DNA of 56,422 nt from Gemmatimonadota bacterium (lineage in GTDB: Bacteria; Gemmatimonadota; Gemmatimonadetes; Gemmatimonadales; Gemmatimonadaceae), in NCBI GenBank assembly GCA_947471365.1, contig CANIWQ010000006.1, positions 1 to 56,422 on the forward strand. Reading direction: 5' to 3'. The position numbers and the translations under genes are program-made. Shown piece after piece: positions 13,994 to 34,246 of this stretch; position 1 is the first letter of the stretch; each line of letters starts with the position of its first letter. The notes beneath the pieces were generated by a model. The model was given only the letters and a program-made list of their open reading frames with translations, did not search any database and was not told the origin of the DNA.

Positions 13994-14686
13994 ATGCCAT
14001 TTCAGGGGATGGAACGCCGAGTGGCGGAAATTCGTAGCCGAATCGACGCGGCCGTCCTCCGCGGCGGACATGGACAGGTCGTGCGCATGATTGCGGTTAC
14101 CAAGACGCATGGCGCGGATGCGGTGGATGCAGCTTACGACGCCGGGCTCGCCGATGTGGGCGAGAACAAAGTGCAGGAAGCGCTCGATAAGCAGCCGTTG
14201 GTGCAGGCGCGCGCGCGCGCGGCGCGATGGCACCTCATCGGCCATTTGCAACGCAATAAAGTAAAACACCTCGGCGCGTTTTGGCTCTTGCATGCGCTCG
14301 ATAGCGCGCGATTGGCCAATGCCGTGCACGAGTTTGGGGTGGCGCGTGGCACACCGATGGACGTGTTGCTGCAGGTGAATGTGGCGGGCGAAGCGACCAA
14401 GGGTGGATATGAGCCGTCGGAGCTCGAAGCAGAGGCCGTTCGGCTGATGGGTTTGCCAGGTCTGCGGATCCGTGGTGTGATGACCATGGCGCCGTTTGAT
14501 GTGGACGAGGGCACCCTGCGCACGGTGTTCAGCGGTGCACGCGCGGCGCGGGACGTACTCCGGCGCGCGGGGCATGACGCCGTGGAGCTGTCGATGGGCA
14601 TGTCGGGGGATTACGAGATCGCCGTAGAAGAAGGAGCCACGATGGTGCGTCTGGGAACCATCCTGTTTGGAGCGAGAGACTTATGA
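13994..14686 (+). CDS. yggS: Pyridoxal-phosphate homeostasis protein, YggS family
   Basis: A 230-residue PLP-binding TIM-barrel protein of the YggS/YBL036C family. It has no known catalysis but balances PLP and amino/keto acid pools. The PLP lysine is Lys37 in MIAVTKTHG; DVGENKVQEALDKQ, WHLIGHLQRNK, GVMTMAPF, SMGMSGDYEIAVEEGATMVRLG and the final GAR are all family landmarks. The first ATG at 13994 gives MPFQGMERR; a second in-frame ATG at 14009 is possible. Neither has a ribosome site at proper distance, consistent with leaderless translation from the promoter just upstream. YggS followed by a DivIVA gene is a familiar gene order. Overlaps divIVA by 4 nt. Confidence 0.93.
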   Translation: MPFQGMERRVAEIRSRIDAAVLRGGHGQVVRMIAVTKTHGADAVDAAYDAGLADVGENKVQEALDKQPLVQARARAARWHLIGHLQRNKVKHLGAFWLLHALDSARLANAVHEFGVARGTPMDVLLQVNVAGEATKGGYEPSELEAEAVRLMGLPGLRIRGVMTMAPFDVDEGTLRTVFSGARAARDVLRRAGHDAVELSMGMSGDYEIAVEEGATMVRLGTILFGARDL

Positions 14687-15261
14687 ACGACGAAGGCTTT
14701 CACCTGACGGCCGTCGATGTGCGACGCTACGAACTTGGGTCGGCGCTCCGCGGCTACGACAAGGCGCGTGTGGACCAACTGCGCGACCAGGTGGCGGACG
14801 AACTGGAACGCCTGACGCGCGTGAATCAGGAACTCGAGGCGAAGGCGAAGGGGTTTCATGAGCAACTGCGGGCGTTTCGCGAGCGCGATAAAGCGCTCAA
14901 CGACGCACTCGTCAGCGCGCAGCAGCTGCGGGCGGATACGAAGGAGCAGGCTGAGCGCGAAGCGATATTGACGCTGCGCGAGGCGCAGGCCGAAGGGCAG
15001 CGCCTGATCGACGAGGCGAAGGCGGAAGTACGTCGGTTGTCGGTGGAGATCGATGCGCTGACGAAGTTGCGTCGCACCCATCTCGCGCATGCGCGCGCGC
15101 TGGCGGAACGACACCTCACCGATTTGCAATCGGCGGAAGCGATGGTCATGCAGATTGCAGCGGCCGAGAAGCCGCGCGACACATGGCTCGACGCTCCGGT
15201 CGACGGGCCCGCGCATTCACCGGATGGTTCGGCGATGGATGCGCCGGTCGAGGACGAGTAA
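14683..15261 (+). CDS. divIVA: DivIVA-domain cell pole / division protein
   Basis: A 192-residue protein with the N-terminal DivIVA membrane-curvature domain ([37 protein letters not shown], residues about 8-46) and a long coiled coil (about 47-160) rich in Glu, Gln, Arg and Ala. The C-terminal 30 residues are acidic and Pro-rich. DivIVA proteins assemble on concave membrane at poles and septa and recruit other factors. Its placement upstream of a chemosensory/MglA cluster, whose known relatives work at cell poles, may be meaningful but this is inference. The start ATG overlaps yggS by 4 nt. Confidence 0.88.
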
Positions 15262-20332: not shown

Positions 20333-21284
20333 CGAAGATGCCGGCACACGCCTCGATGTTCTGGTGGCGCGCCGGCTCGATATTTCTCGCACCATGGCCG
20401 CGACGTTGATCGCGACGGGGCGGGTGTTCGTCAATGCGGGAGCGCAAAAAGCGAGCTACCGCACCGAAGCCGGCGACGCGATCACGGCGACGGTGACCAC
20501 GACCACGGAACGCCCGGTGGTGGGCGAAGACATTCCACTCCACATCATTTTTGAAGACGACGAACTGCTGGTGGTGGACAAGCAAGCGGGGATGGTGGTG
20601 CATCCGGCACCGGGAAACTGGACCGGCACCCTGGTGAATGCGCTGATGGGGCGTGGGCAGGGTTTAGCGGAAGGGGGCGGTGAAGAGCGAGCCGGTCTCG
20701 TACACCGTCTCGACAAGGATACGAGCGGGCTGCTCGTGGTGGCCAAGACTGACCGTTCGCATCGCATTCTCTCCAAGGCGATTTCGGAGCGGCGTGTGTC
20801 GCGCCGCTACGCGGTGATGTGCTGGGGTCACCTCGACGGCGACACGCTGACGGTGGACCGCCCGATTGGGCGCGATCCGAATGACCGCACGAAGATGGCG
20901 ATCGCACTGGCCGGCCGAGATGCGCGCACAGATTTTGTGCGGCTGGCGCGGTTCCAATCGTGTGATTTTTTGCGTGCCCATCTGCACAGCGGGCGCACGC
21001 ACCAGATTCGCGTGCATCTGACGTCGGTGGGGCATCCGGTCGTGGGGGACGACACCTACGGCGGCGGCGGGGCGCGTCGGCTCGTGGAGCTCCCGGCCAA
21101 GCGGCACTTTCTGCATGCCGCCTGGTTGGTGTTTAAGCATCCGGTCACGGGGGAGGCGATGGACTTTCGGTCGCCGCTTCCGGCGGATTTACGGACGTCG
21201 TTGGGGGCTATTTCCGAGATGCCGGAGATAATTGCCCACCCCGATCCCTTGGAGTACCTTGGCTTCTATAGAGTCGACGGCTGA
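20304..21284 (+). CDS. rluD: 23S rRNA pseudouridine synthase, RluD family
   Basis: A 326-residue enzyme. An N-terminal S4 RNA-binding domain (about 15-75; TRLDVLVARRLDISRTMAATLI) precedes the RluA/RluD catalytic domain. The hallmark GLVHRLDKDTSGLLVVAKT contains the nucleophile Asp137, and HSGRTHQIRVHLTSVGHPVVGDDTYGG is the second motif. RluD makes pseudouridines in helix 69 of 23S rRNA; lspA-rluD adjacency is common. The ATG overlaps lspA by 29 nt with GGAG upstream. The tail overlaps the cheW start. Confidence 0.93.
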   Translation: MDTTHQLSVDEDAGTRLDVLVARRLDISRTMAATLIATGRVFVNAGAQKASYRTEAGDAITATVTTTTERPVVGEDIPLHIIFEDDELLVVDKQAGMVVHPAPGNWTGTLVNALMGRGQGLAEGGGEERAGLVHRLDKDTSGLLVVAKTDRSHRILSKAISERRVSRRYAVMCWGHLDGDTLTVDRPIGRDPNDRTKMAIALAGRDARTDFVRLARFQSCDFLRAHLHSGRTHQIRVHLTSVGHPVVGDDTYGGGGARRLVELPAKRHFLHAAWLVFKHPVTGEAMDFRSPLPADLRTSLGAISEMPEIIAHPDPLEYLGFYRVDG

Positions 21285-21720
21285 TCTGGACGTCAAACGC
21301 CTGCTGCTGTTTCGGGCAGCGGGGCGGTTGTGCGCCTGTGATTTGTCGGTGGTGCGGGAGATTGTGGCGGCGCGCGTGGCGACGCGTTTGCCCGGCGCCC
21401 CGGCGTGGGTGATGGGGCTCATCAACGTGCGGGGCACGTTGCTGACGGTGATGGACCTCGCAGTCCGATTTGGAGCACCGCGATCGGCCGACGGTGTGGG
21501 GTCAGTGATCGTGGTGGCGGGGGGGGGCAAGCTTTTTGGGCTACGGGTGGATTCCGTGCGCGATGTACGCGCCGTGGCCGATGCGGCGCTGGAGCCGGTG
21601 GATGACCAGCGCAATGCCGACGGTGTCGTGCGGGCGCTTGTGCCGGCTGGCGTGGTGGGCGACGAGAGCGCGCTGGTGTGTGACATGGACGCGATTGCCC
21701 GCGAAGCGCTCGCGGGCTAG
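21259..21720 (+). CDS. cheW: CheW coupling protein (first of three)
   Basis: A CheW-domain protein of about 153 residues that would couple receptors to CheA. The fold is visible: KRLLLFRAAGRLCACDLSVVREIVA, GAPAWVMGLINVRGTLLTVMDLAVRFG, SVIVVAGGGKLFGLRVDSVRDVRAV. The start is uncertain: TTG 21259 with GGAG 4 nt before is chosen, and TTG 21232 is the farthest upstream option; both lie inside rluD. This is the first gene of the chemosensory block, directly following rluD without a terminator. Confidence 0.85.
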   Translation: MASIESTADLDVKRLLLFRAAGRLCACDLSVVREIVAARVATRLPGAPAWVMGLINVRGTLLTVMDLAVRFGAPRSADGVGSVIVVAGGGKLFGLRVDSVRDVRAVADAALEPVDDQRNADGVVRALVPAGVVGDESALVCDMDAIAREALAG

Positions 21721-21750
21721 CGCAAAACTCCAGAAACGGGTGAGGCGACA

Positions 21751-22113
21751 ATGGCTCCGACAGTGCTGATTTGCGACGACGCGATCTTCATGCGGACGAT
21801 GGTCGGCGACATTCTGCAGCAGGCGGGGTTTGAGGTCGTCGGTGAGGCGGAGACAGGATCGCAGGCGGTGGAGAAGTACAAACTGCTGCGGCCGGATCTC
21901 GTGACGATGGATATCGTGATGCCGGATATGGGGGGGATTGATGCGGTGCGCGCGATCACGCAGTTCGATCCGAACGCGAAAGTGGTGATGTGTAGCGCGA
22001 TGGGGCAGCAGGCACTCGTGGTGGAGGCGATTCAGGCGGGGGCCAAGGATTTTGTGGTCAAGCCCTTCCAGCCCAGTCGCGTACTCGAGGCCGTGCAGCG
22101 GGTGTTGGGGTGA
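21751..22113 (+). CDS. cheY: CheY-type single-domain response regulator
   Basis: A 120-residue receiver domain with no output domain. The phosphoacceptor Asp54 (LVTMDIVMPDMGG), the acidic pair Asp9/Asp10, Ser82 (VVMCSAMG) and Lys104 (FVVKPF) are all present. It should be phosphorylated by the CheA encoded next. Its target is unknown: no flagellar gene is in the window, so it may act on a flagellum encoded elsewhere or on another machine. GAGG lies upstream of the ATG. Confidence 0.92.
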   Translation: MAPTVLICDDAIFMRTMVGDILQQAGFEVVGEAETGSQAVEKYKLLRPDLVTMDIVMPDMGGIDAVRAITQFDPNAKVVMCSAMGQQALVVEAIQAGAKDFVVKPFQPSRVLEAVQRVLG

Positions 22114-22156
22114 TCGTGCGCCGCCCCCCCGGGCCGGCGCGCATTGGCGGGATTCG

Positions 22157-24112
22157 ATGAGCCTCGACCCTGCACGGTACGCGGAGCTCTTTCGGACCGA
22201 GAGCCGAGAGCAGCTCGCCACCATGAATCGCAGCCTGCTCTTGTTGGAGCAGGGCGGCGCCGACGATCAGGATTCCCTGAGCGCGGTCTTTCGTGCGGTG
22301 CACACCGTCAAAGGGATGTGCGCGACGATGGGCTACCATGCGGTCGCCGAATTTGCGCACGAACTGGAGTCGCTGCTCGACCGTGTGCGGCGTGGGGAGC
22401 TGGCGCATGCGCCGGCGTTGATGGATGCGCTGTTCGCCGCCGCGGACGCGTTTGAGGGTGGGCTGGATTCGGCGTCCGATACGTCCTTGGCCACGCCTGA
22501 GATGACCGCGGCGTTGCAGCGACTCCACGACGTAGCCGGTGGGACGGCGACCGGCGAGTTTCGTGCGAGGCCGCAGGAGCCGATGGCAGCTCACGGCGCA
22601 CTCGTGGACGTGGCCGCCACGGATCCGCTCGATGGCCCCGGCGTGATCGTGCGCGTGCGACAGAGCGCGGACGCGATACTGCCCGGCGTGCGAGCCTTTT
22701 TGGCGGTCGAGAAGTTGCGAGCGATCGGTGCGGTGATGGCCACATCGCCGACGGAGGAGGTGCTGCGCGAGGCGACCACTCCGCAAGCGTTTGCGCTCCG
22801 CCTCGTGACCACGGCGTCCGCCTCCGCGATCGAGGCGGCGGTGCGGAGTGCGGGCGACGTCGCGCAGGTGGAGGTGGATGCGAGCGGGCAGGTGCGACGC
22901 AGCACGAGAGCGACGATCGCCGTGGTGCGTGAGGGCGAGGCGGCCGCGGTGCGCGCGGCCTCGCGCACGACGCGTTTTGTGCGCATGGATCTGGCGCGGC
23001 TTGATGCGTTGATGAATCTGATGGGCGAACTGATGATCACCCGCGGGCGCCTGCTCCAGTTATCGGCGGGGATCGGCGACGCCGCGCTGGACGACACGTT
23101 GCAGCACGCGTCGCGGCTGATCGCGGAACTGCAGACGGAAATCATCACGGCGCGCATGGTGCCGGTGTGGCAGGTGTTCGACCGCTTTCCGCGCCTGGTG
23201 CGCGATGCGGCACGCCAGCTCGGCAAAGACGTCAACTTCGTTATCGAAGGAAAGGACATCGAGCTGGATCGCTCGCTGCTCGACGAGATTGGCGAGCCGG
23301 TGGTGCACCTCCTGCGCAATGCGCTCGATCATGGCATTGAAGCGCCGGAGGTGCGGGTCGCGGCGGGCAAGCCGGCGGCGGGCCGCTTGGTGCTGAGCGC
23401 GGCGCGTGATCGGGCGTCGGTGCTGATTCGCGTCAGTGACGATGGTCGCGGGATTGATCGCGCCAAGGTTCTCGCCCGCGCGCAGGCCGCTGGGCTGGTG
23501 GACGCGACGGTGCGCGAGCTCGACGACGAGCAGTTGTTGCGGTGCATTGCGCACCCGGGGTTGTCCACCGCGGAGCAGGTGTCGGACCTCTCCGGCCGTG
23601 GTGTCGGCGTGGATGCGGTCCAGACCAAAGTGCGCGCACTCGGTGGGTCGGTGGAGCTGCGCAGTCCGCCGGGCCTTGGCACGACGATGACGGTGCGGTT
23701 GCCTATTACGCTGGCGATTGTGCGGGCGTTGCTCGCGCGAGCGGGAACGGAGTGCTATGCGCTGCCGCTCACGCATGTGCGCGAGACGCTGGAGTACGGC
23801 GGCGGAGCGGTGCAGCACGTGAAGGGGCGCGACGTCTTAGTGCTCCGCGACGAGTTGCTGCCGTTGCTGGATTTGCGGCAGGTGGTGCGTCAGGGCGGTG
23901 CACCCGGCAAGGCGCGCGAGATCGTGGTGATCGAACGCGGTGATCGACGGTCCGGTCTCGTCGTGGATGAGTTGCTGGGACAACAGGAGATCGTGGTGAA
24001 ACCGTTCGACGCGCCGCGGGAAGGGCTGGCGTTGTTCAGTGGCGCGACGATTCTCGCCGACGGCGCACCCGCGCTGATCGTAGACGTAGGCAGCCTCTTT
24101 CAGGGGACGTGA
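22157..24112 (+). CDS. cheA: Chemotaxis histidine kinase CheA
   Basis: A 651-residue CheA. Domain order: Hpt (1 to about 110) with phospho-acceptor His49 in FRAVHTVKGMCATMGY; a poorly conserved middle (about 150-280) in the place of the regulator-binding P2; a dimerisation helix pair (MNLMGELMITRGRL); the HATPase domain with LLRNALDHGIEAPEVR, VSDDGRGID and SGRGVGVDAV; and a CheW-like domain (about 520-651) with MTVRLPITLAIVRALLAR and DVLVLRDELLPLLDLRQVV. Length is typical. It begins 43 nt after cheY; the end overlaps cheC by 4 nt. Confidence 0.94.
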   Translation: MSLDPARYAELFRTESREQLATMNRSLLLLEQGGADDQDSLSAVFRAVHTVKGMCATMGYHAVAEFAHELESLLDRVRRGELAHAPALMDALFAAADAFEGGLDSASDTSLATPEMTAALQRLHDVAGGTATGEFRARPQEPMAAHGALVDVAATDPLDGPGVIVRVRQSADAILPGVRAFLAVEKLRAIGAVMATSPTEEVLREATTPQAFALRLVTTASASAIEAAVRSAGDVAQVEVDASGQVRRSTRATIAVVREGEAAAVRAASRTTRFVRMDLARLDALMNLMGELMITRGRLLQLSAGIGDAALDDTLQHASRLIAELQTEIITARMVPVWQVFDRFPRLVRDAARQLGKDVNFVIEGKDIELDRSLLDEIGEPVVHLLRNALDHGIEAPEVRVAAGKPAAGRLVLSAARDRASVLIRVSDDGRGIDRAKVLARAQAAGLVDATVRELDDEQLLRCIAHPGLSTAEQVSDLSGRGVGVDAVQTKVRALGGSVELRSPPGLGTTMTVRLPITLAIVRALLARAGTECYALPLTHVRETLEYGGGAVQHVKGRDVLVLRDELLPLLDLRQVVRQGGAPGKAREIVVIERGDRRSGLVVDELLGQQEIVVKPFDAPREGLALFSGATILADGAPALIVDVGSLFQGT

Positions 24113-24726
24113 CGGTGGACGACATCCGGCAACTCTCGGCACTTCAGCTGGACGCGCTACGCGAAGTCGCAAACATCGGCGCGGGACACGCCGCGACCGC
24201 CCTGTCGCACATGACGACGCAGCGCATCATGATCAGCGTGCCGCGGCTCACCATCTCCCCGCTCGCCGATGTGCCCAACCACATCGATGCGGGTGAAGAG
24301 CCGGTCGCCGCCGTGCTGATGCGCATGCTGGGCGATCTCACGGGACTCACGATGCTCGTCTTTTCGCGGCAGACGGCGTTGCGCGTGGCGGGGCTGATGA
24401 TGAACAAACCGGTGACCGAGCTCGGGGTGATGGAACAATCAGCCATCAAAGAGGCGGGCAATATTCTCAGTGCGGCGTATCTCAATGCCCTGAGTGAGTT
24501 CCTGGGTATGATTTTACTGCCGTCGCCGCCGTCGTTGGCGGTGGACATGAGCGACGCCGTGCTGAACACGAGCTTCGTGGAGGTCGCGAGCGATCACGAC
24601 GCGGTGTTCTGCGTGGAGAGCGAGTTTCAGCTGGCGGACAACGGGGAACGGCTTCGGGGCTTCTTTTTGCTGATGCCGGACGTGCCAAGCCTGAACGCCA
24701 TTTTGCGCGCGATCCGCGTCGATTGA
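24109..24726 (+). CDS. cheC: CheC-family phosphatase
   Basis: A 205-residue CheC/CheX/FliY-family protein. Two active-site helices with the E-x3-N pattern are seen: Glu19/Asn22 in LREVANIGAGHAATALS, and a second in EQSAIKEAGNILSAAYLNALSEFLG. CheC dephosphorylates CheY-P and, in Bacillus-type systems, binds and regulates CheD; cheD is encoded later in this operon and no cheZ is present. The GTG at 24109 overlaps the cheA stop and has AGGGG upstream. Confidence 0.9.
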   Translation: MTVDDIRQLSALQLDALREVANIGAGHAATALSHMTTQRIMISVPRLTISPLADVPNHIDAGEEPVAAVLMRMLGDLTGLTMLVFSRQTALRVAGLMMNKPVTELGVMEQSAIKEAGNILSAAYLNALSEFLGMILLPSPPSLAVDMSDAVLNTSFVEVASDHDAVFCVESEFQLADNGERLRGFFLLMPDVPSLNAILRAIRVD

Positions 24727-24736
24727 CGGCGCGTTG

Positions 24737-27448
24737 ATGGCGGAGACGCATGGATCTGTACGCGATCGCGCGACGCTGCTGAGCTTCGCGCGCCGCATCG
24801 ATCCGTCTGATGCCGGCGCGCACAATAATTTAGGTGTCTTGTACTTCAATAAGGGGCTGCACGAAGAGGCCGTCGCGGCGTTCACCAAGGCGCTCGAGCT
24901 CGACGCCAAGATGCAGGTGGCGCAGCGCAACCTTGAGGTGGCGTACTTCAACACGGGGTTCTACGATCGCCGTGTGGGCGAACTGCGGGAGCGTCTACGC
25001 CAGCGCGTCGATGACCGCGATGCGCGATGGGAACTCGGTCGGGCGTGCGCGCTCCTCGGACGCGCCGACGAAGCGATCGTGGAATTCACGGCGTTGTTGC
25101 ATCATCATCCCGGGGACCTCGCGGCGATCGTGCAACTCGCGTTGGCCGAAAAGGCGAATGGGAGTCTCGGCAACGCGATGGCGTGGCTGGAAGAGGCGCT
25201 CCGGCTCGATCCCGCCAGTTCCTTGACGCACTTCTATCTCGGCGAAGTGCTGTACAACCAGGGGCGGGCGGAGGACGCGCTCGTGGAGTTGCAGCGCGCG
25301 ATCGAGTTGAATCCAGACAATCCGGACGCGCTGTTTCTCCTCGGGTTCGTCTACGGTGAACTCGGGCGACCGGAGGAAGCGCGCGCGGCCAGCAAGCGGG
25401 CGATCCAGTTGAACCCCACGCTGTCGCGCGCGCAGGCCAACTTGTCGCTCGATCAGTACAATCCGCAGAAGTACGACGAGTTGCTCCCCGGGCATTCTGA
25501 GCGAAAGACGCAGCGGCTGATGCAGGTGGCGGAAGGGGAGCGGCTGGCGCATTACTCGCTGGGGCTCGCGTATCGCCGGAAAGGGTACCTTGTGGAGGCG
25601 GAGCGCGAATACACGCTCGCGCTGGAGCGAGGTGAGGATCAGGCGCTGGTGCGGCAGGCGCTGGCGGAGCTGTGCTTGTTGCGCAAGGATCCCGTGGCGG
25701 CCCTGGTGCTGTATGACGCGCTGGTCGCGGAGCAGACCGACAGTCCGAAACTGTGGAATGAGCGCGGTGTCGCGCTCCATCAGGCGGGGCGATATGCCGA
25801 CGCCGCCGCCAGTTATCAGCAGTCGCTCGTGGCGGATGCCCGCTACGCGTTGGCGCTCAACAATTTGGCCGTGGCTCGATATCACAACGGCGACCACGAC
25901 GCGTCGGTGGACGCCTTCCGCGCTGCGCTCGACATCAGTCCGTCCTTTACCAAGGCACGACTCAACCTCGCGCTTCTGCTCACGAAGAGCCGGCGCTATC
26001 AGCTCGCGCTCGAGGCGTATCGTCAGGTGCTGAGTGCGGAGCCGGAGCAGCCGACGGCGTGGAACGGCATTGGGTTGGTGTTGTCGGAGCTGCGCAAGTA
26101 TGAGGATGCGCGCAATGCGTTCGCACGGTCGATTCAGGCGAATCCGAAGCTGGCGGAAGCGCACTACAATCTGAGTTTCGTGTTGTCGAACCTCGGGGAC
26201 TTTGAGGGCGCGTTGCGCGAGACCAAACGCGCGCTCGAGCTCGATCCGTATTACGTGCCGCAGAAGTTCCAGCTGGCGATCGACCTCGAGTATGAAGATG
26301 CCGACTTGCAGGTGGTGCCGGATCTCGGTGGTGAGCAGCGGCTGAGTGGCGACGTGGATACGTTCGCGTTCGACCCGCAGTTGCTGGATTCGTTGTTCCG
26401 TGAGCTCAAGCCGGCGCAGGAACCGGCGGCCGTCGAGGCGCCAGCGGAGGCAGATCCCTATGCGATGGCGGCGGACTACCTCACCAAGGGGATGCTGGAT
26501 CGCGCCCGTGCGGAAACGAGTCGCGCGCTCGCGCGCGGGAGTGCTCCGGCCGACGGCAACGCGTTGCTCGGCGATATTCTCTGCCGGCAGGGCGCGTTCG
26601 GTGACGCGTTGGAGCGATACCGTGCGGCGCGGCAGGCCGAACCGCACCATGGGCGCGCGCTCCGAGGCGAGGCGCAAGCGTTGCTCATGCTCGGGCGGGG
26701 CGCCGAAGCACGCGACGTAGCCGACCGAGTGTTGGCGACCGCGCCGGACGATGTGGACACGATGCTCCTTGCGGCGAGCTGCCGCTTTGAGGCAGGGGAT
26801 CCCGCGGCGGCGCTCGAGGTGCTCGAGCAGGCGCGCCGGCAGTCCCCCGCGCGGGCGGAGGTGTTGCGCTGGATCGGCAACATCACGCGATCGCTCGGTG
26901 ACATCGACGGGGCGATGGCGGCGTATCGACATGCGCTCGAACTCGACGGCGACTTTGCGGCGGTGCGATTTGATCTTGCGCGCCTGCTCTCGCAACGGCA
27001 GGAGTGGGATGAAGCGGAGTCTCATCTGCTCGCGGCGCTTGACGCCGTTCCCACGTATACCGAAGCGATCCTCGAGCTGTCCGCGCTCCGGCGTCTGGCC
27101 GGTCGGCCGCGCGACGCGCTGGCGCTCCTCGTGGAGCTGCTGGTGCGCGATCCGTACAACTTCGACGGATTGCTCTCGCTCGGCGAAACATTGATGGAGA
27201 TTGGACGACCCGTAGACGCGGCGAACGCGTTCCATCGCATTCTGACGTTCGACGGTGATCACGTGGGGGCACTGTACTACGACGGCGTGTTACTCGCTGA
27301 GCAAAAGCGGTACCGCGAGGCGGTGGCGCAGTGGACGCGCGTGAGTGACTTGGAACCGGCCGGGGAGTTCGCACGCCGGGCTCGTCGCGACGCCCGGACG
27401 GCCGACGACCTGCTCACGGTCTTCGGCGATCGCGCGCGGGAGGGCTGA
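24737..27448 (+). CDS. large TPR-repeat protein of the chemosensory/MglA operon
   Basis: A 903-residue soluble protein made of two TPR superhelices (about 25-520 and 580-890), with clear units such as AGAHNNLGVLYFNKGLHEEAVAAFTKALELD and PDALFLLGFVYGELGRPEEARAASKRAIQLNP. They are separated by an acidic, Pro/Ala-rich linker (about 530-575). No signal peptide or membrane segment is seen. TPR arrays are protein-binding scaffolds; large TPR proteins are known partners of MglA in polar systems, which makes a scaffold for the downstream GTPase an attractive but unproven role. TTG 24734 or ATG 24737 may start it; ATG is preferred. Confidence 0.8.
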   Translation: MAETHGSVRDRATLLSFARRIDPSDAGAHNNLGVLYFNKGLHEEAVAAFTKALELDAKMQVAQRNLEVAYFNTGFYDRRVGELRERLRQRVDDRDARWELGRACALLGRADEAIVEFTALLHHHPGDLAAIVQLALAEKANGSLGNAMAWLEEALRLDPASSLTHFYLGEVLYNQGRAEDALVELQRAIELNPDNPDALFLLGFVYGELGRPEEARAASKRAIQLNPTLSRAQANLSLDQYNPQKYDELLPGHSERKTQRLMQVAEGERLAHYSLGLAYRRKGYLVEAEREYTLALERGEDQALVRQALAELCLLRKDPVAALVLYDALVAEQTDSPKLWNERGVALHQAGRYADAAASYQQSLVADARYALALNNLAVARYHNGDHDASVDAFRAALDISPSFTKARLNLALLLTKSRRYQLALEAYRQVLSAEPEQPTAWNGIGLVLSELRKYEDARNAFARSIQANPKLAEAHYNLSFVLSNLGDFEGALRETKRALELDPYYVPQKFQLAIDLEYEDADLQVVPDLGGEQRLSGDVDTFAFDPQLLDSLFRELKPAQEPAAVEAPAEADPYAMAADYLTKGMLDRARAETSRALARGSAPADGNALLGDILCRQGAFGDALERYRAARQAEPHHGRALRGEAQALLMLGRGAEARDVADRVLATAPDDVDTMLLAASCRFEAGDPAAALEVLEQARRQSPARAEVLRWIGNITRSLGDIDGAMAAYRHALELDGDFAAVRFDLARLLSQRQEWDEAESHLLAALDAVPTYTEAILELSALRRLAGRPRDALALLVELLVRDPYNFDGLLSLGETLMEIGRPVDAANAFHRILTFDGDHVGALYYDGVLLAEQKRYREAVAQWTRVSDLEPAGEFARRARRDARTADDLLTVFGDRAREG

Positions 27449-27451
27449 GCC

Positions 27452-28453
27452 ATGGCGATCGAAGGACCGCTCAAGGAACTCGGCGTTCACGACGTCTTTC
27501 AGCTGCTCGACCTGAGCCGCAAGACCGGCACGCTGGCCGTGACCTCCGAACTGCGTGACAATGCGGGGACCGTGTTGTTCGCGCGCGGCCGCGTCGTGGG
27601 CGCCACCATCCGGAGCAATCCGCACCGGATCGGGGAACTGTTGCTGCGCTCGGGCAAGGTGTCGAAGGCGGACATCGAGAAGGCTCGGCTCGCGCAGGCG
27701 GACGCGGGCGACGACCGTCGGCTCGGGGAAATTCTGGTGGAGTCGGGCGCGCTGTCGAGCAAGGAACTTGAGCGGCAGATGCGACTGCAGATCGAGGCCG
27801 TGGTGTTTGAACTGCTGTCGTGGGGCGAAGGATTCTTCCGTTTTGAGGAAGGTCCCGTGGGGGCCGGCTCCACGGTGGAGATCGGGACAGAGTCGTTGAT
27901 GATGGAAGGGGCCCGCCGGATTGATGAATGGTCGCGCATTTCAGACCGGGTGCCGAGTCTTTCTGCGGTGCCAATGTTTGCGCCGGTGGCGGATGATGGC
28001 GGGCCGCAACTCGATCTGTTGCCGAGCGAGTGGGAAGTCCTCACGCGGATCGACGGCGAGCACGATCTGCGGTCGATTGCCGCCGAGCTGAGCCGCAGCG
28101 ACTTCGAAGTGGCAAAGGTGGTGTATGGGCTCGTGACGACCGGCGTGGTGGAACTGCGGATGGGGAGCGGCGCGTCCGTGCCTCCGGTGGAGCGCGTGCA
28201 GACTCCCCTCATGACGCCTGTCGTCACCGCGGGTGTGACGCCCGTCGTCGCCGTCGCCGATCCGCGTCCGCCAGCCGATGACCTGGCTCTGGGTTTTTCG
28301 CTGCTCCGTCAGGCAGATTACCGTAGTGTACTGGACGCGTGGTCGCGCGTCCTAGCTGAGCACCCGTCGCACGAACACGCCGACGAGATTCGCGAAGGGA
28401 TGGTGGCCGTCGCGCGTCTGCAGGCGATGCTGGAGAAGTGGCATGACGTCTGA
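27452..28453 (+). CDS. DUF4388 (PATAN-type) protein
   Basis: A 333-residue protein. Residues about 1-110 are a DUF4388 domain (MAIEGPLKELGVHDVFQLLDLSRKTGTLAV ... GTVLFARGRVVGATI ... IGELLLRSGKVSKADIEKA), continued by LGEILVESGALSSKELERQMRLQIEAVVFELLSWGEGFFRFEEG. A winged-helix-like segment follows (about 185-235; SEWEVLTRIDGEHDLRSIAAELSRSDFEVAKVVYGLVTTGVV), then a Pro/Val-rich linker and a helical tail. The PATAN domain was first noted in cyanobacterial PatA regulators and recurs near MglA-type GTPases; its biochemical role is unknown. It is a relative of the N-terminal half of the protein at 32627-34246. Overlaps the next gene by 11 nt. Confidence 0.82.
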   Translation: MAIEGPLKELGVHDVFQLLDLSRKTGTLAVTSELRDNAGTVLFARGRVVGATIRSNPHRIGELLLRSGKVSKADIEKARLAQADAGDDRRLGEILVESGALSSKELERQMRLQIEAVVFELLSWGEGFFRFEEGPVGAGSTVEIGTESLMMEGARRIDEWSRISDRVPSLSAVPMFAPVADDGGPQLDLLPSEWEVLTRIDGEHDLRSIAAELSRSDFEVAKVVYGLVTTGVVELRMGSGASVPPVERVQTPLMTPVVTAGVTPVVAVADPRPPADDLALGFSLLRQADYRSVLDAWSRVLAEHPSHEHADEIREGMVAVARLQAMLEKWHDV

Positions 28454-29312
28454 CGACATTCGCGCGCTGAGCGACGCGCTGGCGGCCGACCCGTCGAGCA
28501 CGGTCTTCCTGCAGTTGGGGGAGGCGTTGCGTCGTCGGGGACAGTTGGACGTGGCCCTGAAGGTGGCGACGCGCGGGGCGGAACGGCATCAACAACGTCC
28601 TGAAGCGCACGACCTGCTCGCGCGTATTGCGATTGATCAGGGCGACTTCGCGCGCGCGCGCGCGGAGTGGGAGTTTGTATTGCACCTCTCACCGGGTGAT
28701 GCCGCTGCCCAGAAGGGGCTTGGATTTCTCTGTTTCCAGCAGGGGGACTCCGCCAACGCCGCGCTCTGGCTCGCCGCGGCGCTCGCGGCGGACCCGAACG
28801 ATCCATCGCTCGGGGCAGCGCTCGCGACGGTACGGTCGACGATCGCGGCGGCCGATGCCGTGTCACCGGTGGCGGGAGCTGACGCCGCGGCGGCGCGCGA
28901 TCAGACGTGGGACCCTGTGCCGACGGTCGCGGCGCGCGCGCCGGTTGCCGACGCACGCGCGCTGTTTGATGTGGTGATTGGCGATCAGCCGCAGACGGTA
29001 CTGCTGATTGATCGCGATGGGTTTGTCGTGGCGGGGCAGTATGTAACGGCCGACGGCCGCGATCTTGGGGCAGACCTTGGCGCGCAGTTGTCTGGCATCA
29101 GTGACGAAGCGGCGCGCGCCGTGCAACACCTCGGGCTTGGCTCGTGGCAGCAAATCGTATTTGAGTCCGAAGCCGCGAGTGTCGCGATGGCCCCGAGTCT
29201 GGATGGCGTGCTGCTCGTGGCCTCGCCGCGCAGCGTACCCTTGGGCTATGTGCGCCGCCTGCTCGAGCGTTCGCTGGAACGCGTGCGGCGCTGGCTGGAG
29301 ACGGGGACGTGA
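28443..29312 (+). CDS. TPR plus Roadblock/LC7 protein
   Basis: A 289-residue protein. Residues about 1-135 are TPR-like helical repeats (DQGDFARARAEWEFVLHLSPGDAAAQKGLGFLCFQQGDSANAALWLAAALAADP). After an Ala-rich linker, residues about 175-285 form a Roadblock/LC7 domain (VLLIDRDGFVVAGQYVTADGRDLGADLGAQLSGISDEAARAVQHLGLG ... ESEAASVAMAPSLDGVLLVASP). Roadblock proteins such as MglB bind and activate MglA-type GTPases. First of three consecutive Roadblock genes upstream of the GTPase gene. The ATG overlaps the DUF4388 gene by 11 nt. Confidence 0.82.
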   Translation: MTSDDIRALSDALAADPSSTVFLQLGEALRRRGQLDVALKVATRGAERHQQRPEAHDLLARIAIDQGDFARARAEWEFVLHLSPGDAAAQKGLGFLCFQQGDSANAALWLAAALAADPNDPSLGAALATVRSTIAAADAVSPVAGADAAAARDQTWDPVPTVAARAPVADARALFDVVIGDQPQTVLLIDRDGFVVAGQYVTADGRDLGADLGAQLSGISDEAARAVQHLGLGSWQQIVFESEAASVAMAPSLDGVLLVASPRSVPLGYVRRLLERSLERVRRWLETGT

Positions 29313-29656
29313 GCAGTCCGTTCTCCTCCGTGCTCAGCGCGCTCATCCGGCACCGCGGGGTGTCGGGGTGCTGTGTGGTGGGCGAGCGCGACGGGATGAT
29401 CGTGGAGGCCAATCTTCAGATTGGGCTCAACGGCACCGCGTTCGCGGCGCTGACGGCTTCGCTGTATCGCAAAGCGCGGCGGTCGGCGCTCGCGGCGGGC
29501 TTCGGTGAGGCGGCCTTCTTTGAACTCACGGCCGACGCGGGGCGGGTGTGCGCGGTGGGGCGCAACGAACTCGTGCTCGTGGTGATTGCCGAGCCGATGG
29601 TCAATGTGGGCTTGGTGCGCGTGGAGATGTTGCGGGCGCTGGAGCTGTTCACATGA
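29309..29656 (+). CDS. stand-alone Roadblock/LC7 protein (second of three)
   Basis: A 115-residue single-domain protein. The pattern GCCVVGERDGMIVEANLQIGLNGTAFAALTASLYRKARRSALAAGFGEAAFFELTADAGRVCAVGRNELVLVVIAEPMVNVGLVRVEMLRAL matches the Roadblock/LC7 fold. Such proteins form homo- or heterodimers and may act as GAP or platform for the GTPase encoded by 30131-30736. GTG start overlapping the preceding stop by 4 nt. Confidence 0.82.
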   Translation: MSSPFSSVLSALIRHRGVSGCCVVGERDGMIVEANLQIGLNGTAFAALTASLYRKARRSALAAGFGEAAFFELTADAGRVCAVGRNELVLVVIAEPMVNVGLVRVEMLRALELFT

Positions 29657-30123
29657 AGCTCTCGGTGGCCGCCTCGTGGGTGGAGATGCCGTTGCGGAAG
29701 TTCGTGTTGGACGCGCGGCTCGAACTGGGCGTGCTGTTGCACCCGACGGGGCAGGTGCTCGGGCAGTTTGGGTTTGCGCGCTCGGTGGACGTGATGACGG
29801 CGTGCGCGCTTGCGGCGGCGGCGCATGCGTCGTCGGCTGAGTTAGGCCGCCAGCTGGAGGGCCAGCCGTTCCGCGGCGTGCATTACGTGGGATCCACGCG
29901 TCAGTTTTTTCGCGCGACCGTCGTGACGCAGGCGACGCCGCTCATTTTGTTTGCCGTGTTTGACGAAGAGAGTTCGCTGGGGGTGGTGCAGTTGTTTTTC
30001 CAGCAGTTTTGCCGTGAGGTGGCCGCGTTGGCGCCCAGTGCCGAAGCGGAACCCGCCGCGCTCGCCGAGGATTTTGAAAGCGAGCTCAATCGCAACCTTG
30101 CCGTGATGTTCGGCCGAGTCTGA
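29653..30123 (+). CDS. Roadblock/LC7 protein, MglB-like candidate (third of three)
   Basis: A 156-residue protein with a Roadblock core at about 22-130: ELGVLLHPTGQVLGQFGFARSVDVMTACALAAAAHASSAELGRQL ... FRGVHYVGSTRQFFRATVVTQATPLILFAVFDEESSLGVVQLFFQQF. The acidic, helical tail (about 131-156) is reminiscent of C-terminal extensions in MglB. It directly precedes the MglA-like gene (7-nt gap), the usual mglB-mglA order, so it is the best candidate for the GTPase-activating partner. Start ATG overlaps the previous gene by 4 nt. Confidence 0.78.
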   Translation: MKLSVAASWVEMPLRKFVLDARLELGVLLHPTGQVLGQFGFARSVDVMTACALAAAAHASSAELGRQLEGQPFRGVHYVGSTRQFFRATVVTQATPLILFAVFDEESSLGVVQLFFQQFCREVAALAPSAEAEPAALAEDFESELNRNLAVMFGRV

Positions 30124-30130
30124 GACGCTG

Positions 30131-30736
30131 ATGAGCCTGGTCAACTACGCGACGCGCGAAATCACGTGCAAAATCGTCTACTACGGCCCCGGACGGTCGG
30201 GGAAGACGACAAATCTGCACTACATCTACGGGCAGGTGCCGGCGGATCGCAAAGGGCAGATGGTGTCGCTGGCCACGCAGACGGATCGCACCCTGTTCTT
30301 TGACTTTTTACCGCTCGACCTCGGCACGATTTCTGGTTTCTCAACGCGATTTCAGTTGTATACCGTGCCGGGTCAAGTCTATTACCAGACCACACGGAAG
30401 CTCGTGCTCCAGGGCGCGGACGGCGTCGTGTTTGTGGCCGACAGCCAGGCGCGGCAGATGGACGAGAATATTGAGTCGATGCAGGACATGCACGCAAACC
30501 TCGCGGAGTACGGCATCGACGCGCGCACGATGCCGTTGGTGCTGCAGTACAACAAACAAGATTTGCCGCCGGAATTGCTGTTGCGTGTGCCAGAGCTTGA
30601 TGAGCAACTGAATTTTCGTGGCGTGCCGAGTTTCGGTGCGGACGCGTTGCATGGCCCGGGCGTATTTGAGACGTTGCGGGCCGTGTCGGAACAGGTGCTC
30701 CGCAAGTTGAGCGCAGCGGGTGGGGGGCGCTTCTAG
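30131..30736 (+). CDS. mglA: MglA-like small Ras-type GTPase
   Basis: A 201-residue GTPase. P-loop GPGRSGKT at 19-26, the switch region QTDRTLFFDFLPLDLGTISG, the G3 segment YTVPGQVYY in which the usual DTAGQ Asp is replaced (TVPGQ, as in MglA), and NKQD at 141-144. These are hallmarks of the MglA family, which set cell polarity and drive motility reversals in Myxococcus and relatives. It follows the MglB-like Roadblock gene and precedes the double-AAA+ gene by 1 nt. The C-terminus (KLSAAGGGRF) has no lipidation motif. Confidence 0.9.
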   Translation: MSLVNYATREITCKIVYYGPGRSGKTTNLHYIYGQVPADRKGQMVSLATQTDRTLFFDFLPLDLGTISGFSTRFQLYTVPGQVYYQTTRKLVLQGADGVVFVADSQARQMDENIESMQDMHANLAEYGIDARTMPLVLQYNKQDLPPELLLRVPELDEQLNFRGVPSFGADALHGPGVFETLRAVSEQVLRKLSAAGGGRF

Positions 30737-30737
30737 G

Positions 30738-32627
30738 GTGCGTGTTGATACCCGACTGCGCTTCGATAACCTCGTGGTGGGGGCGGGCAACCGCCTCGCG
30801 GTCGCGGCCGCGCGTGCGGTGGCAGAGTCGCCGGGCGCCGTGTATAACCCGCTCTTTATTTACGGCGGCACGGGGTTGGGCAAGACGCACTTGCTGTCCG
30901 CGATCGGTCATTTGAGTGAGGCGCTGCACCCGGGGCTCGATGTCGAATACCTGTCGCTCTTGGACTTTGTGGAGCAACTCCTTGCCGCGACGTCCGCGGG
31001 ACATCTCGAGGCGTTCACGAGCCGCTACGAGCGGGTGGGGCTGCTGCTGATTGACGATGTGCAGTTCCTGACCGGCCATCGGGAGATGCAAGCCGAGCTC
31101 CTGAAGCTGTTCGAGCGCATGCAGCGCGCGGGACGTCAGATTGTGCTCACGAGTGACCGCCCGCCCGCGGAAATTCCCGACGTGGATGCGCGGCTCGTCA
31201 GTCGCCTCAGCGGCGGTCTGATTGCCGATGTGACCGCGCCCGAGTTTGAGACGCGCATGGCGATTCTCCGCGCCAACTGCGAGGAGCGCAAGCTCTCGTT
31301 TCAAGATGGCGTGCTCGAAGAGATGGCGGCCTTTAGTTTTGCGAGCGTGCGCGAACTGCAAGGCGCGCTCAACCGACTCGTCGCGCATCAGGCCATCGGC
31401 GCGGAATCCGGACGAGCCGCGTCGGCGCCTGAGCCGGCCGGACGGTCCCTTGGGGAGTTTGAGAGCTTCCTGTCCGACGTCTCGAAGGACGTCGCGCACG
31501 CGGTGGAGTCATGGCAGTCGCGATTGTCGGCGGCCGTGCAGCACTGGCGCGGTGAAGGGTACCGCACGCGCGTGATTGAGCGGGCGCTCTCGCTTGCCAA
31601 GGAGCCGGATGTTGACGGGTTGCTCAAAACGTTCGAGGCGGCCGTTGACCACCTCCGCAATCTCGAACTGACGGCGACCAGCGTCGATCCCGCCCTTGGC
31701 GGCGATGCGGTCTTTCGCGATCCGGAACGCATGGCCGAGGCGGAGGATCTCGTTGAGCGCGCGCTCGCGGGCGCCACACCACCCGAGGGGCCGAGTCCGT
31801 CGTTCGTGCGCTCCGCCTTTGAGGTGGGGACCTCGAACCAACTCGCCGTGCACGCCGCCGATGCGGTCATTGCCGAGCCGGGGACGAAGTACAACCCGCT
31901 CGTGTTTTACGGCCCGAGCGGGGTGGGCAAAACGCATCTGCTCAATGCGATCGGTAACACGCTCACGGGCACGGGCGCGGCACCCAAAGTTGTCGCGTAC
32001 GTTCATGCGCAGAAGTTTGTCGATGAACTCATCGCGGCGATTCAAGGTGGATCGGTGGAGCGCTGGCGGATTCGGTACCGCAACGCGGACGCGTTGATCA
32101 TTGATGACGTGCAGTTCGTCGCGGGGAAGGAACGCACGCAGGAAGAACTCTTTTTATTGTTCAATTCGATTGTTGCCGCTGGCAAACAGATCGTGATGAC
32201 GAGTGACCGTCCCCCGGCGGAAATTCCCGACCTGGAAGCGCGCTTGCGTTCACGATTCGAAGGCGGGCTGGTGGTGCCGATTCAGGCACCCGACCGTTCG
32301 TTGCGCGAACGACTCTTTGCGAAGTATTTGACCGAGGCCGGCCGGAACGCAGACGACGCGTTGCTCGCCGTGCTGGCGGAACAGCCGGTGCAAAGCGTGC
32401 GTGAGATTATTGGCGTGGTGAATCGGCTCGGTCTTGCCTCTGACGCCACGGGCGTTCCGGTCGACGCGGCGCTCGCCCGTGCCGAGTTGGGGCTCGCCAC
32501 GCCGTTTGCCGGCGTGCACGCCGTGGGCAGTGCGACGCGCTCGAGTCGGTCGCTGATGTTCGATGCTGAAAAGCTCGTGTGGGAATGGCCCGACGTGTCG
32601 GCCCGCATCGTCGAGGAGCTCCGCTAA
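30738..32627 (+). CDS. tandem DnaA-type AAA+ ATPase lacking the DNA-binding domain
   Basis: A 629-residue protein with two copies of the DnaA domain-III ATPase. AAA1 (about 7-215): Walker A GGTGLGKTH (43-51), Walker B LLLIDDVQF (102-110), sensor 1 VLTSDRPP (136-143), arginine-finger region ARLVSRLSGGL (151-161), sensor 2 SVRELQGALNRL (203-214). AAA2 (about 357-565): GPSGVGKTH (392-400), ALIIDDVQF (452-460), VMTSDRPP (486-493), ARLRSRFEGGL (501-511), SVREIIGVVNRL (553-564). A helical linker (about 235-345) joins them. DnaA domain I and the domain IV helix-turn-helix are absent, so it is not a replication initiator in the normal sense. It sits between the MglA-like GTPase and a DUF4388/TPR gene, which suggests remodelling of that system. 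GTG 30738 is taken as start; GTG 30720 is possible. Confidence 0.88.
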   Translation: MRVDTRLRFDNLVVGAGNRLAVAAARAVAESPGAVYNPLFIYGGTGLGKTHLLSAIGHLSEALHPGLDVEYLSLLDFVEQLLAATSAGHLEAFTSRYERVGLLLIDDVQFLTGHREMQAELLKLFERMQRAGRQIVLTSDRPPAEIPDVDARLVSRLSGGLIADVTAPEFETRMAILRANCEERKLSFQDGVLEEMAAFSFASVRELQGALNRLVAHQAIGAESGRAASAPEPAGRSLGEFESFLSDVSKDVAHAVESWQSRLSAAVQHWRGEGYRTRVIERALSLAKEPDVDGLLKTFEAAVDHLRNLELTATSVDPALGGDAVFRDPERMAEAEDLVERALAGATPPEGPSPSFVRSAFEVGTSNQLAVHAADAVIAEPGTKYNPLVFYGPSGVGKTHLLNAIGNTLTGTGAAPKVVAYVHAQKFVDELIAAIQGGSVERWRIRYRNADALIIDDVQFVAGKERTQEELFLLFNSIVAAGKQIVMTSDRPPAEIPDLEARLRSRFEGGLVVPIQAPDRSLRERLFAKYLTEAGRNADDALLAVLAEQPVQSVREIIGVVNRLGLASDATGVPVDAALARAELGLATPFAGVHAVGSATRSSRSLMFDAEKLVWEWPDVSARIVEELR

Positions 32628-34246
32628 TGGCGATTCGCGGAAGTCTCAAGGAGGCCAGTCTCCCCGACGTGCTGCAGCTGCTCTCGATGGGCAAGAAAAC
32701 CGGTTGCTTGTCGGTGACGCATCGCAACAATTTCGGCTCGATCTATTTCGACAAGGGAAAGATCTGCTACGCGGCGATCGTGAATCGGCGCGACCGGCTC
32801 GGCGATATCTTGCTCAAGAGCGGCGTGATTACGGGGGCACAGCTTCAGCAGGCGATTGACGCGCAGTCGAAGCAGCGCGATAAGCGCCTCGGTGATGTGC
32901 TGGTCTCGCTCGGCATCATTTCGCGCGAGGGGCTGCACGGGCAGATCCGCATTCAAATCGAAGAGGCCGTCTACTTCCTGTTTACGTGGGCGCAGGGGAC
33001 GTTCAACTTTGAGGCCGATCTCACGCCGGAAGAGCAGGACTTTCTGGTGTCGATCAATCCCGAGTCGCTGCTGCTCGAGGGTGCCCGACGCGTGGACGAG
33101 TGGGGGCTCATTGAAAAGAAGATTCCGTCGTTTGATATCGTGTTTGACCTCGACCGTCGGAAGCTCGAAGAAAATCGCGGCAATCTCTCCAAGGAGCAGG
33201 AGGTGATTCTGCCGCTGATCGACGGACGTCTCGATGTGGCGGCGATCGTCGAAGAGTCGGGGCTTATTGAATTCGATGTGGGGAAGGCGCTGTACGGCCT
33301 TGCCACGGCGGGATTTCTGCATCGCGTCGGGAAGACCAAGAGCTCCGAGGTCACGGCGCCCGATACGCGCGTGGAGGAGCACCGCAATCTCGGCATCGCG
33401 TTTTTCAAGACCGGTATGCTCGACGAGGCGGAGCGAGAGTTCCGCCGCGTGGTGGAGTTGCGGCCTGGTGATCTGCAGGCGCGGTTCAGTGTTGGCCTGG
33501 TGCACTTGCGCCTCGGTCGGTGGGACGATGCCATTGCCGACTTCGCGGCGGCCACGCATTCGCGCGGCGCGTCGCCGTGGGTGTATCACAACCTCGCGTA
33601 CGCGCACGAACGACGCGGCGAGTACGGCAAGGCGCGTGCGGCTTTACACGAAGCGGTGGCGCGTGGCGCCGATGGCGATGCGCGTGTCCACACGTCGTTT
33701 GGCGTGCTGGCACTGCGGGAAGGAGACCTGCCCAGCGCGCGCGCGTCCTTGGCGCGTGCCCGAGCACTGCTCGGCGAGGGCAAGCCCAGCGCGGCGTGGT
33801 ACCACTACGCCGGGCTGGAGGCGTGGCTCAGTCAGCGTGCCGACGATGCCGTCGCGTTATTGCGCGAGGGAACGGAGCGGTATCCGCACGCGGCCGTGCT
33901 CTTCAACAACCTGTCCGTGGCGCTCGATCGGCAGCGGATGTACCCAGAGGCGCTGGCGGCGGCGGAGCGCGGCGCGGTCGAGGAGCCGGGGATCGCCCAG
34001 CTGCACAAAAATATTGGTGATGCGCTCTACCGCAGCGGACGCTTTGACGAAGCGTACGACGCCTTCCAGCGGGCCGTGAAGTTCAATGAACAGATCGGCC
34101 CCGACGCGTGGTTCAAGCTGGGGAATATTCGGCTGCGTCGCAACGAACGCGCGGATGCCATTCGCTGCTGGGAGCGTGCGCTGGTGCTCGACCCCGACAA
34201 CGCGATCGTCCGCCAGAATCTCACGGCGGCGAAGGCGCCGTCGTGA
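32627..34246 (+). CDS. DUF4388 plus TPR protein
   Basis: A 539-residue protein. An N-terminal DUF4388 domain (about 1-110: MAIRGSLKEASLPDVLQLLSMGKKTGCLSVT ... GSIYFDKGKICYAAIVNRRDRLGDILLKSGVI) is followed by a conserved second part (to about 250; EAVYFLFTWAQGTFNFEADL, then LPLIDGRLDVAAIVEESGLIEFDVGKALYGLATAGFL). These mirror the protein at 27452-28453, so the two are paralogues. A C-terminal TPR array (about 260-530) is added here. ATG overlaps the preceding stop TAA by one base. It ends with a 4-nt overlap with cheR. Probably an adaptor between the AAA+/GTPase module and the Che proteins; this is inference. Confidence 0.84.
   Translation: MAIRGSLKEASLPDVLQLLSMGKKTGCLSVTHRNNFGSIYFDKGKICYAAIVNRRDRLGDILLKSGVITGAQLQQAIDAQSKQRDKRLGDVLVSLGIISREGLHGQIRIQIEEAVYFLFTWAQGTFNFEADLTPEEQDFLVSINPESLLLEGARRVDEWGLIEKKIPSFDIVFDLDRRKLEENRGNLSKEQEVILPLIDGRLDVAAIVEESGLIEFDVGKALYGLATAGFLHRVGKTKSSEVTAPDTRVEEHRNLGIAFFKTGMLDEAEREFRRVVELRPGDLQARFSVGLVHLRLGRWDDAIADFAAATHSRGASPWVYHNLAYAHERRGEYGKARAALHEAVARGADGDARVHTSFGVLALREGDLPSARASLARARALLGEGKPSAAWYHYAGLEAWLSQRADDAVALLREGTERYPHAAVLFNNLSVALDRQRMYPEALAAAERGAVEEPGIAQLHKNIGDALYRSGRFDEAYDAFQRAVKFNEQIGPDAWFKLGNIRLRRNERADAIRCWERALVLDPDNAIVRQNLTAAKAPS

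Follow-up and report, generated by a model that had tools for sequence, protein, structure and literature searches.

The window, the whole stretch of 56,422 nucleotides analyzed here, carries an operon in which a gene for a tandem DnaA-AAA protein, for which we coin the label DnaAx2, lies among chemosensory, Roadblock, MglA, and PATAN (DUF4388) genes. The genes and features of this operon are as follows.

21232–24726, + strand: CheW, CheY, CheA, and CheC genes (domain scan; CheY named from sequence only)
24734–27448, + strand: 904-aa TPR protein (Pfam)
27452–28453, + strand: second PATAN (DUF4388) protein (Pfam)
28443–29312, + strand: TPR-Roadblock protein (Pfam)
29309–29656, + strand: Roadblock/LC7-like protein (weak match)
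29650–30123, + strand: MglB-like Roadblock protein (weak match to solved MglB, E 2e-4)
30131–30736, + strand: MglA-type GTPase (58% identical to M. xanthus MglA)
30738–32627, + strand: DnaAx2, 629 aa (ORF, Pfam)
30738–31403, + strand: AAA1, residues 1–222, with the full ATPase motif set (Pfam, motifs, AF2 model, Foldseek to DnaA domain III)
31455–31505, + strand: EFxxFL helix (core motif 1), residues 240–256 (alignment; retained in micro-proteins)
31506–31775, + strand: helical linker domain, residues 257–346 (no Pfam family; no PDB match by sequence or fold)
31794–32501, + strand: AAA2, residues 353–588 (motifs; complete in the window protein)
32562–32624, + strand: C-terminal tail DAEKLVWEWPDVSARIVEELR (core motif 2), residues 609–629 (predicted disordered)
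32627–34246, + strand: partner protein, 539 aa, a PATAN (DUF4388) domain with an MshEN-type insert followed by TPR repeats (domain scans, neighborhood)
32795–32956, + strand: MshEN-type tandem motif in the partner, residues 57–110, RLGDILLKSGVITGAQLQQAIDAQ and RLGDVLVSLGIISREGLHGQIRIQ (NCBIfam NF053729, pattern, PMC5013675)
34246–38435, + strand: CheR, CheD, CheB, CheW, CheW, and TPR genes (CheD, CheB, and the first CheW from sequence and gene order only)

The DnaAx2 gene starts with a GTG at 30738, one base past the mglA stop codon (30734–30736), and its TAA stop codon (32625–32627) overlaps by one base the ATG of the next gene (32627), in agreement with a preliminary description of this DNA. 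Comparison of 40 loci gave a usual gene order of CheW-CheY-CheA-CheC-TPR-PATAN-TPR/Roadblock-Roadblock-MglB-like-MglA-DnaAx2-PATAN/TPR-CheR-CheD-CheB-CheW-CheW-TPR, flanked by rluD and rsmH, with individual genes absent in some genomes; the MglA/Roadblock/chemosensory setting that had been described for the window is conserved over these loci. The operon contains both genes expected of an MglA polarity module, an MglA GTPase and an MglB-type Roadblock GAP, the latter by a weak match (E 2e-4). In most genomes of the class, this chemosensory/MglA operon (21232–42654 in the window) lies between lspA/rluD and rsmH. It is located just upstream of apparent cell-wall and division genes, and a DivIVA gene is found at 14683–15261.

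DnaA is the protein that starts DNA replication, and DnaA-type ATPases are textbook replication proteins. Pfam Bac_DnaA (PF00308) matches DnaAx2 twice (346 bits, E 4e-104), and the Walker A, Walker B, sensor 1, box VII arginine, and sensor 2 motifs are present in both halves of the window protein, which bears out the earlier statement that one chain holds two complete DnaA-like ATPase cores. The same Pfam scan found neither DnaA_N nor the helix-turn-helix domain Bac_DnaA_C (PF08299) in DnaAx2, while the ordinary DnaA of the host genome (G000:C31, L001, on another contig), used as a positive control, matches DnaA_N, Bac_DnaA, and Bac_DnaA_C. The absence of domains I and IV was thus correctly called, and the hidden helix-turn-helix that would have spoken against the earlier description was looked for and rejected. 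An AlphaFold2 model (mean pLDDT 87.8) contains two confident AAA+ domains, a helical linker (pLDDT >90 for most of residues 257–346), and a disordered C terminus; with a pTM of 0.53, the model does not fix how the two AAA domains are placed relative to each other. In Foldseek comparisons, the AAA halves superimpose on DnaA domain III with an rmsd of 1.5–2.4 over ∼220 residues.

Comparison with NCBIfam models, which the preliminary description had proposed as a check, placed DnaAx2 above the cut-off for the DnaA equivalog TIGR00362 (499.8 bits, cut-off 343.9, both AAA domains together) and below those for Hda (TIGR03420, 160.5 bits, cut-off 194.8), IstB (115 bits, cut-off 200), and DnaC (34 bits, cut-off 357). 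Because the two AAA domains jointly pass the TIGR00362 cut-off, the gene can be mislabeled as a second dnaA, a point of importance for annotation. In a tree of 88 domains, which is unrooted and includes a small sample of outside DnaA proteins, AAA1 (support 100/99) and AAA2 (100/100) form their own clades apart from DnaA; this tree does not support a recent origin of either half by copying of the host dnaA. A role as a defense-system protein was also considered and set aside, as it had only P-loop cross-hits.

The linker profile was run on 395 genomes of the phylum, which is probably Gemmatimonadota, and matches 236 of them. DnaAx2 is a single-copy gene in these genomes; the exceptions are a duplicate in one fragmented assembly and a weak second match in another genome. 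Since orthologues could be aligned from 40 loci and the linker occurs in 236 of the 395 genomes, the DnaAx2 gene is not a product of chance. Among 50 MglA-bearing genomes from outside the phylum (Myxococcota, the Geobacter group, and Nitrospirota), there was no true linker match, the sole hit being antisense to an SRP gene; the same was found for 237 genomes of the phylum of Minicystis, where the sole partial match was to a cyclase-like gene. A literature search found no described function for the tandem DnaA-AAA architecture, as had been stated before. DnaAx2 is a real, conserved, and apparently undescribed family, in which the domain type is known and the architecture and context are new.

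Analysis of the motifs in 84 distinct tandem proteins showed that the intact state of both halves, claimed from the window protein and true of it, does not extend to all relatives: the ATP site and the arginine finger are intact in both halves of 49 of the 84, and the others have lost motifs in one half. In the window protein, the Walker lysine of AAA1 is K49, that of AAA2 lies in GVGKTH (residues 393–400), and the AAA2 finger is the second arginine of RLRSRF (residues 502–507). The AAA1 Walker A lysine is kept in 82/84 (both exceptions are cut off at contig ends), and almost every protein with an AAA1, single-AAA forms included, retains both Walker motifs of this domain. The arginine finger of AAA1 is kept in 75 and decayed in 8. 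In AAA2, the Walker A motif is kept in 60 proteins and the ATP site is lost in 24, while the finger R285 is kept in 83/84 and R281 in all 84; in family f7, AAA2 has Walker A in none of nine proteins and both box VII arginines in all nine. Partial decay spares the AAA1 pocket and the AAA2 finger, with L029 as the sole exception among complete proteins. Judged by these counts, AAA1 and AAA2 are not equivalent. The preferential retention of the AAA1 ATP site and the AAA2 finger leads us to infer that DnaAx2 is a composite ATPase, in which the pocket of one domain would be completed by the finger of the other; the box VII arginines may alternatively be kept for folding rather than catalysis. With the ATP site kept in one domain and the finger in the other, the composite-site idea is directly testable.

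The two domains also differ at V211, K243, and R245 (E. coli numbers), which we take to be the ssDNA contacts of DnaA. In AAA1 these positions are replaced (V/I211 in 2, K243 in 1, and R245 in 3 of 84 proteins), and in AAA2 they are mostly kept (80, 52, and 81 of 84, respectively). Loss of the ATP site in AAA2 (31794–32501) does not entail loss of its ssDNA-contact residues: all nine proteins of family f7, whose AAA2 is a pseudo-ATPase, still have I211 and R245 there, with T or M in place of K243. R245 is more conserved in AAA2 than in DnaA proteins of the same class.

The ATPase cores noted in the preliminary description are real, but that description overlooked a conserved middle region and C-terminal tail. 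This second conserved core of the family consists of the EFxxFL helix and a helical bundle between the ATPases, together with a tail that has the alignment consensus EKxVWxWPxxxxRxxEExR. The linker has no PDB relative by sequence or by fold (best fold E 3.6); its assignment to Pfam DHH_CID was rejected, as the match is weak (E 0.07) and absent from other members. When the family is laid out as a reduction series, it begins with tandem proteins that have both ATP sites and tandem proteins with a decayed AAA2 site (family f7), passes through proteins with a single AAA, linker, and tail (families f8 and f10) and one with an AAA and tail and the linker missing (G118), and reaches proteins with a linker and tail and the AAA domains missing (G197, G268, and G367). 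In eight further genomes that seemingly lack the gene, an ORF of ∼55–80 aa before the PATAN/TPR gene encodes the EFxxFL helix and the WP tail and nothing else of the large protein (L136:6923–7144, and the same slot in L137, L138, L144, L262, L263, L266, and L267). Over this series, the longest-conserved part of the family is the helix/tail peptide and not the ATPase, and such a short peptide is suited to binding assays. A separate irregular locus was seen in G117 (L072:1609–4614, − strand), where AAA1 and the linker continue into a C-terminal part that is unrelated and resembles a protease, with no PATAN/TPR gene downstream; this chimera, which takes the place of the tandem protein, may be a deletion or an assembly join.

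The MglA neighbor noted in the preliminary description is present in the window and adjoins DnaAx2 in 30 of 40 loci, but MglA is not constant, and the PATAN/TPR gene follows DnaAx2 in 39/40; DnaAx2 genes are thus not found mostly away from mglA and DUF4388 genes, a distribution that had been named as evidence against the description. The ten loci without an adjacent MglA belong to family f7, where DnaAx2 directly follows rluD and the rest of the operon is missing at the site, and nine of these ten retain the PATAN/TPR gene; MglA as an obligate partner was rejected for this reason. Gene neighborhoods indicate that the constant partner is the downstream PATAN/MshEN-TPR gene, not MglA. In G242, a single 1051-aa ORF (L147:2735–5887, − strand) joins AAA1-linker-AAA2-tail to PATAN-MshEN-TPR, and an NCBIfam scan of this ORF found the DnaA model and an MshE-related c-di-GMP motif in one chain. 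No further fusion was present among four candidates checked, and the fusion is known from one genome.

Motifs for c-di-GMP binding by MshEN domains are described in PMC5013675 as two 24-residue RLG...Q motifs with a short spacer. The insert of the window partner has both motifs and can be classed as MshEN-type, with c-di-GMP binding as a prediction. Because one or both motifs are degenerate in the partners of many relatives, c-di-GMP binding is not general. At all eight micro-protein loci, the partner has lost the MshEN-type insert (residues ∼56–110) and keeps the PATAN core and TPRs; at loci that retain the linker or an AAA domain, the partner insert is retained. These eight coupled losses all fall in three genera of one family (g3, g5, and g13), so they may represent a single event. 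The L258 locus of G314 was excluded as an additional coupled loss: cheA has there been brought up against the middle of the PATAN/TPR gene by a large deletion, and the locus reflects recent decay.

As a possible output of the operon, type IV pili were compared among genomes. A pilT gene scores above the model cut-off in 61/62 DnaAx2 carriers and in 74/87 non-carriers (Fisher p 0.008, in a test that ignores kinship). A flagellar role for DnaAx2 was rejected, as flhA is found in only 21/62 carriers. In work cited in PMC9090330, the Synechocystis pilus motor PilB1 is bound by response regulators of the PATAN type, and in M. xanthus the TPR protein SgmX relays the action of MglA-GTP to pili (PMC7519303). 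PATAN genes near mglA or mglB have been noted before (PMC4316618). Taken together, the pilT association and the PATAN-PilB1 and MglA-SgmX precedents suggest pilus control as the likeliest role for DnaAx2.

Building on the domains, motifs, operon, gene fusion, reduction series, and coupled insert loss that can be read from these genomes, we propose that a DnaA-derived AAA+ switch has been relocated from replication into a surface-motility signaling module. The EKxVWxWP tail of DnaAx2 would dock on the PATAN/MshEN-TPR protein encoded directly downstream. AAA1 would be the site of ATP binding and hydrolysis, and AAA2 would mainly contribute an arginine finger to complete this site, through an intrachain fold-back or from the next molecule of an oligomer. 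The nucleotide and assembly state of DnaAx2, probably read together with the c-di-GMP-binding-type insert of the partner, would then govern the presentation of the PATAN-TPR protein to MglA-GTP and to the motors of the type IV pilus. DnaAx2 may assemble or remodel a complex, as the preliminary description suggested. We give an even chance to the central claim, in which DnaAx2 controls MglA/type IV pilus output as an ATP-dependent switch whose tail docks on the PATAN-TPR protein.

Other explanations were weighed against this proposal. The retained ssDNA positions of AAA2 provide the main opening for a nucleic-acid role, in which DnaAx2 would form an AAA+ filament that holds ssDNA or RNA through AAA2 and connects the module with the chromosome, for instance in polar positioning. 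Such a filament would account for the AAA2 counts at V/I211, K243, and R245 and for the persistence of I211 and R245 in the f7 pseudo-ATPases, but AAA1 has lost nearly all of these contacts, there is no domain IV, family f7 has T or M in place of K243, and R245 may instead serve an AAA1-AAA2 interface; we regard this explanation as unlikely. The lineages reduced to a linker and tail or to a micro-protein would be expected of a plain scaffold, for which ATP cycling is irrelevant and the helix and tail merely hold the MglA, Roadblock, and PATAN-TPR proteins together. It is difficult to see why both Walker motifs of AAA1 would be retained so nearly universally if ATP were not bound, and this renders a plain scaffold improbable.

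Hda is a precedent for action on DnaA by a DnaA-type AAA domain that lacks domain IV, and DnaAx2 could similarly be a replication regulator in which AAA1 or AAA2 docks on the AAA+ domain of DnaA and ties initiation to the chemosensory/polarity module. The host DnaA domain and AAA1 share 47% identity, and the AAA2 box VII arginines are kept in 83–84 of 84 proteins, both of which accord with this possibility. On the other hand, the Hda model gives 160 bits compared with 500 for the DnaA model, the gene context is one of signaling and not replication, several lineages have lost both AAA domains yet keep the helix and tail, and the tree gives no support for recent copying of either half from the host DnaA, so that we consider such a regulator quite improbable. 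To return to the proposed motility switch, its broader implication, which we hold as possible but somewhat short of even, is that the DnaA AAA+ clade yielded a non-DNA signaling ATPase with two domains and a single composite ATP site, that this ATPase governs a c-di-GMP/MglA-dependent pilus effector, and that it persists in some lineages as a micro-protein with the docking motifs alone. To our knowledge, the DnaA AAA+ clade is so far known only from DNA transactions; if the proposal is true, a widespread, single-copy relative in a motility operon would be the first of this clade outside DNA metabolism that we are aware of.

Several known systems share parts of this arrangement. The operon has MglA, an MglB-like Roadblock protein, TPR proteins, and chemosensory genes in common with the M. 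xanthus MglA/MglB/SgmX module, in which we know of no DnaA-type ATPase, and the DnaAx2 linker was not found in the Myxococcota searched. The helper ATPases IstB and DnaC belong to the same AAA+ clade as DnaA, but the DnaAx2 operon has no transposase or helicase neighbor. Like DnaAx2, Hda, a sliding-clamp binder that promotes hydrolysis of DnaA-bound ATP, has a DnaA-type AAA domain and lacks domain IV, whereas DnaAx2 is a tandem protein in a different gene context. Both domains of the PATAN and MshEN proteins known from the pilus field occur in the DnaAx2 partner, and the available portions of that literature mention no DnaA-type AAA partner. A further likeness is to domain III of DnaA (B. subtilis 8bv3, T. 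maritima 2z4r, and A. aeolicus 1l8q/3r8f), which has the AAA+ fold and all ATPase motifs in common with DnaAx2; compared with DnaA, DnaAx2 consists of two tandem copies of domain III without domains I, II, and IV, has an AAA1 without the ssDNA contacts, and adds a new linker and tail.
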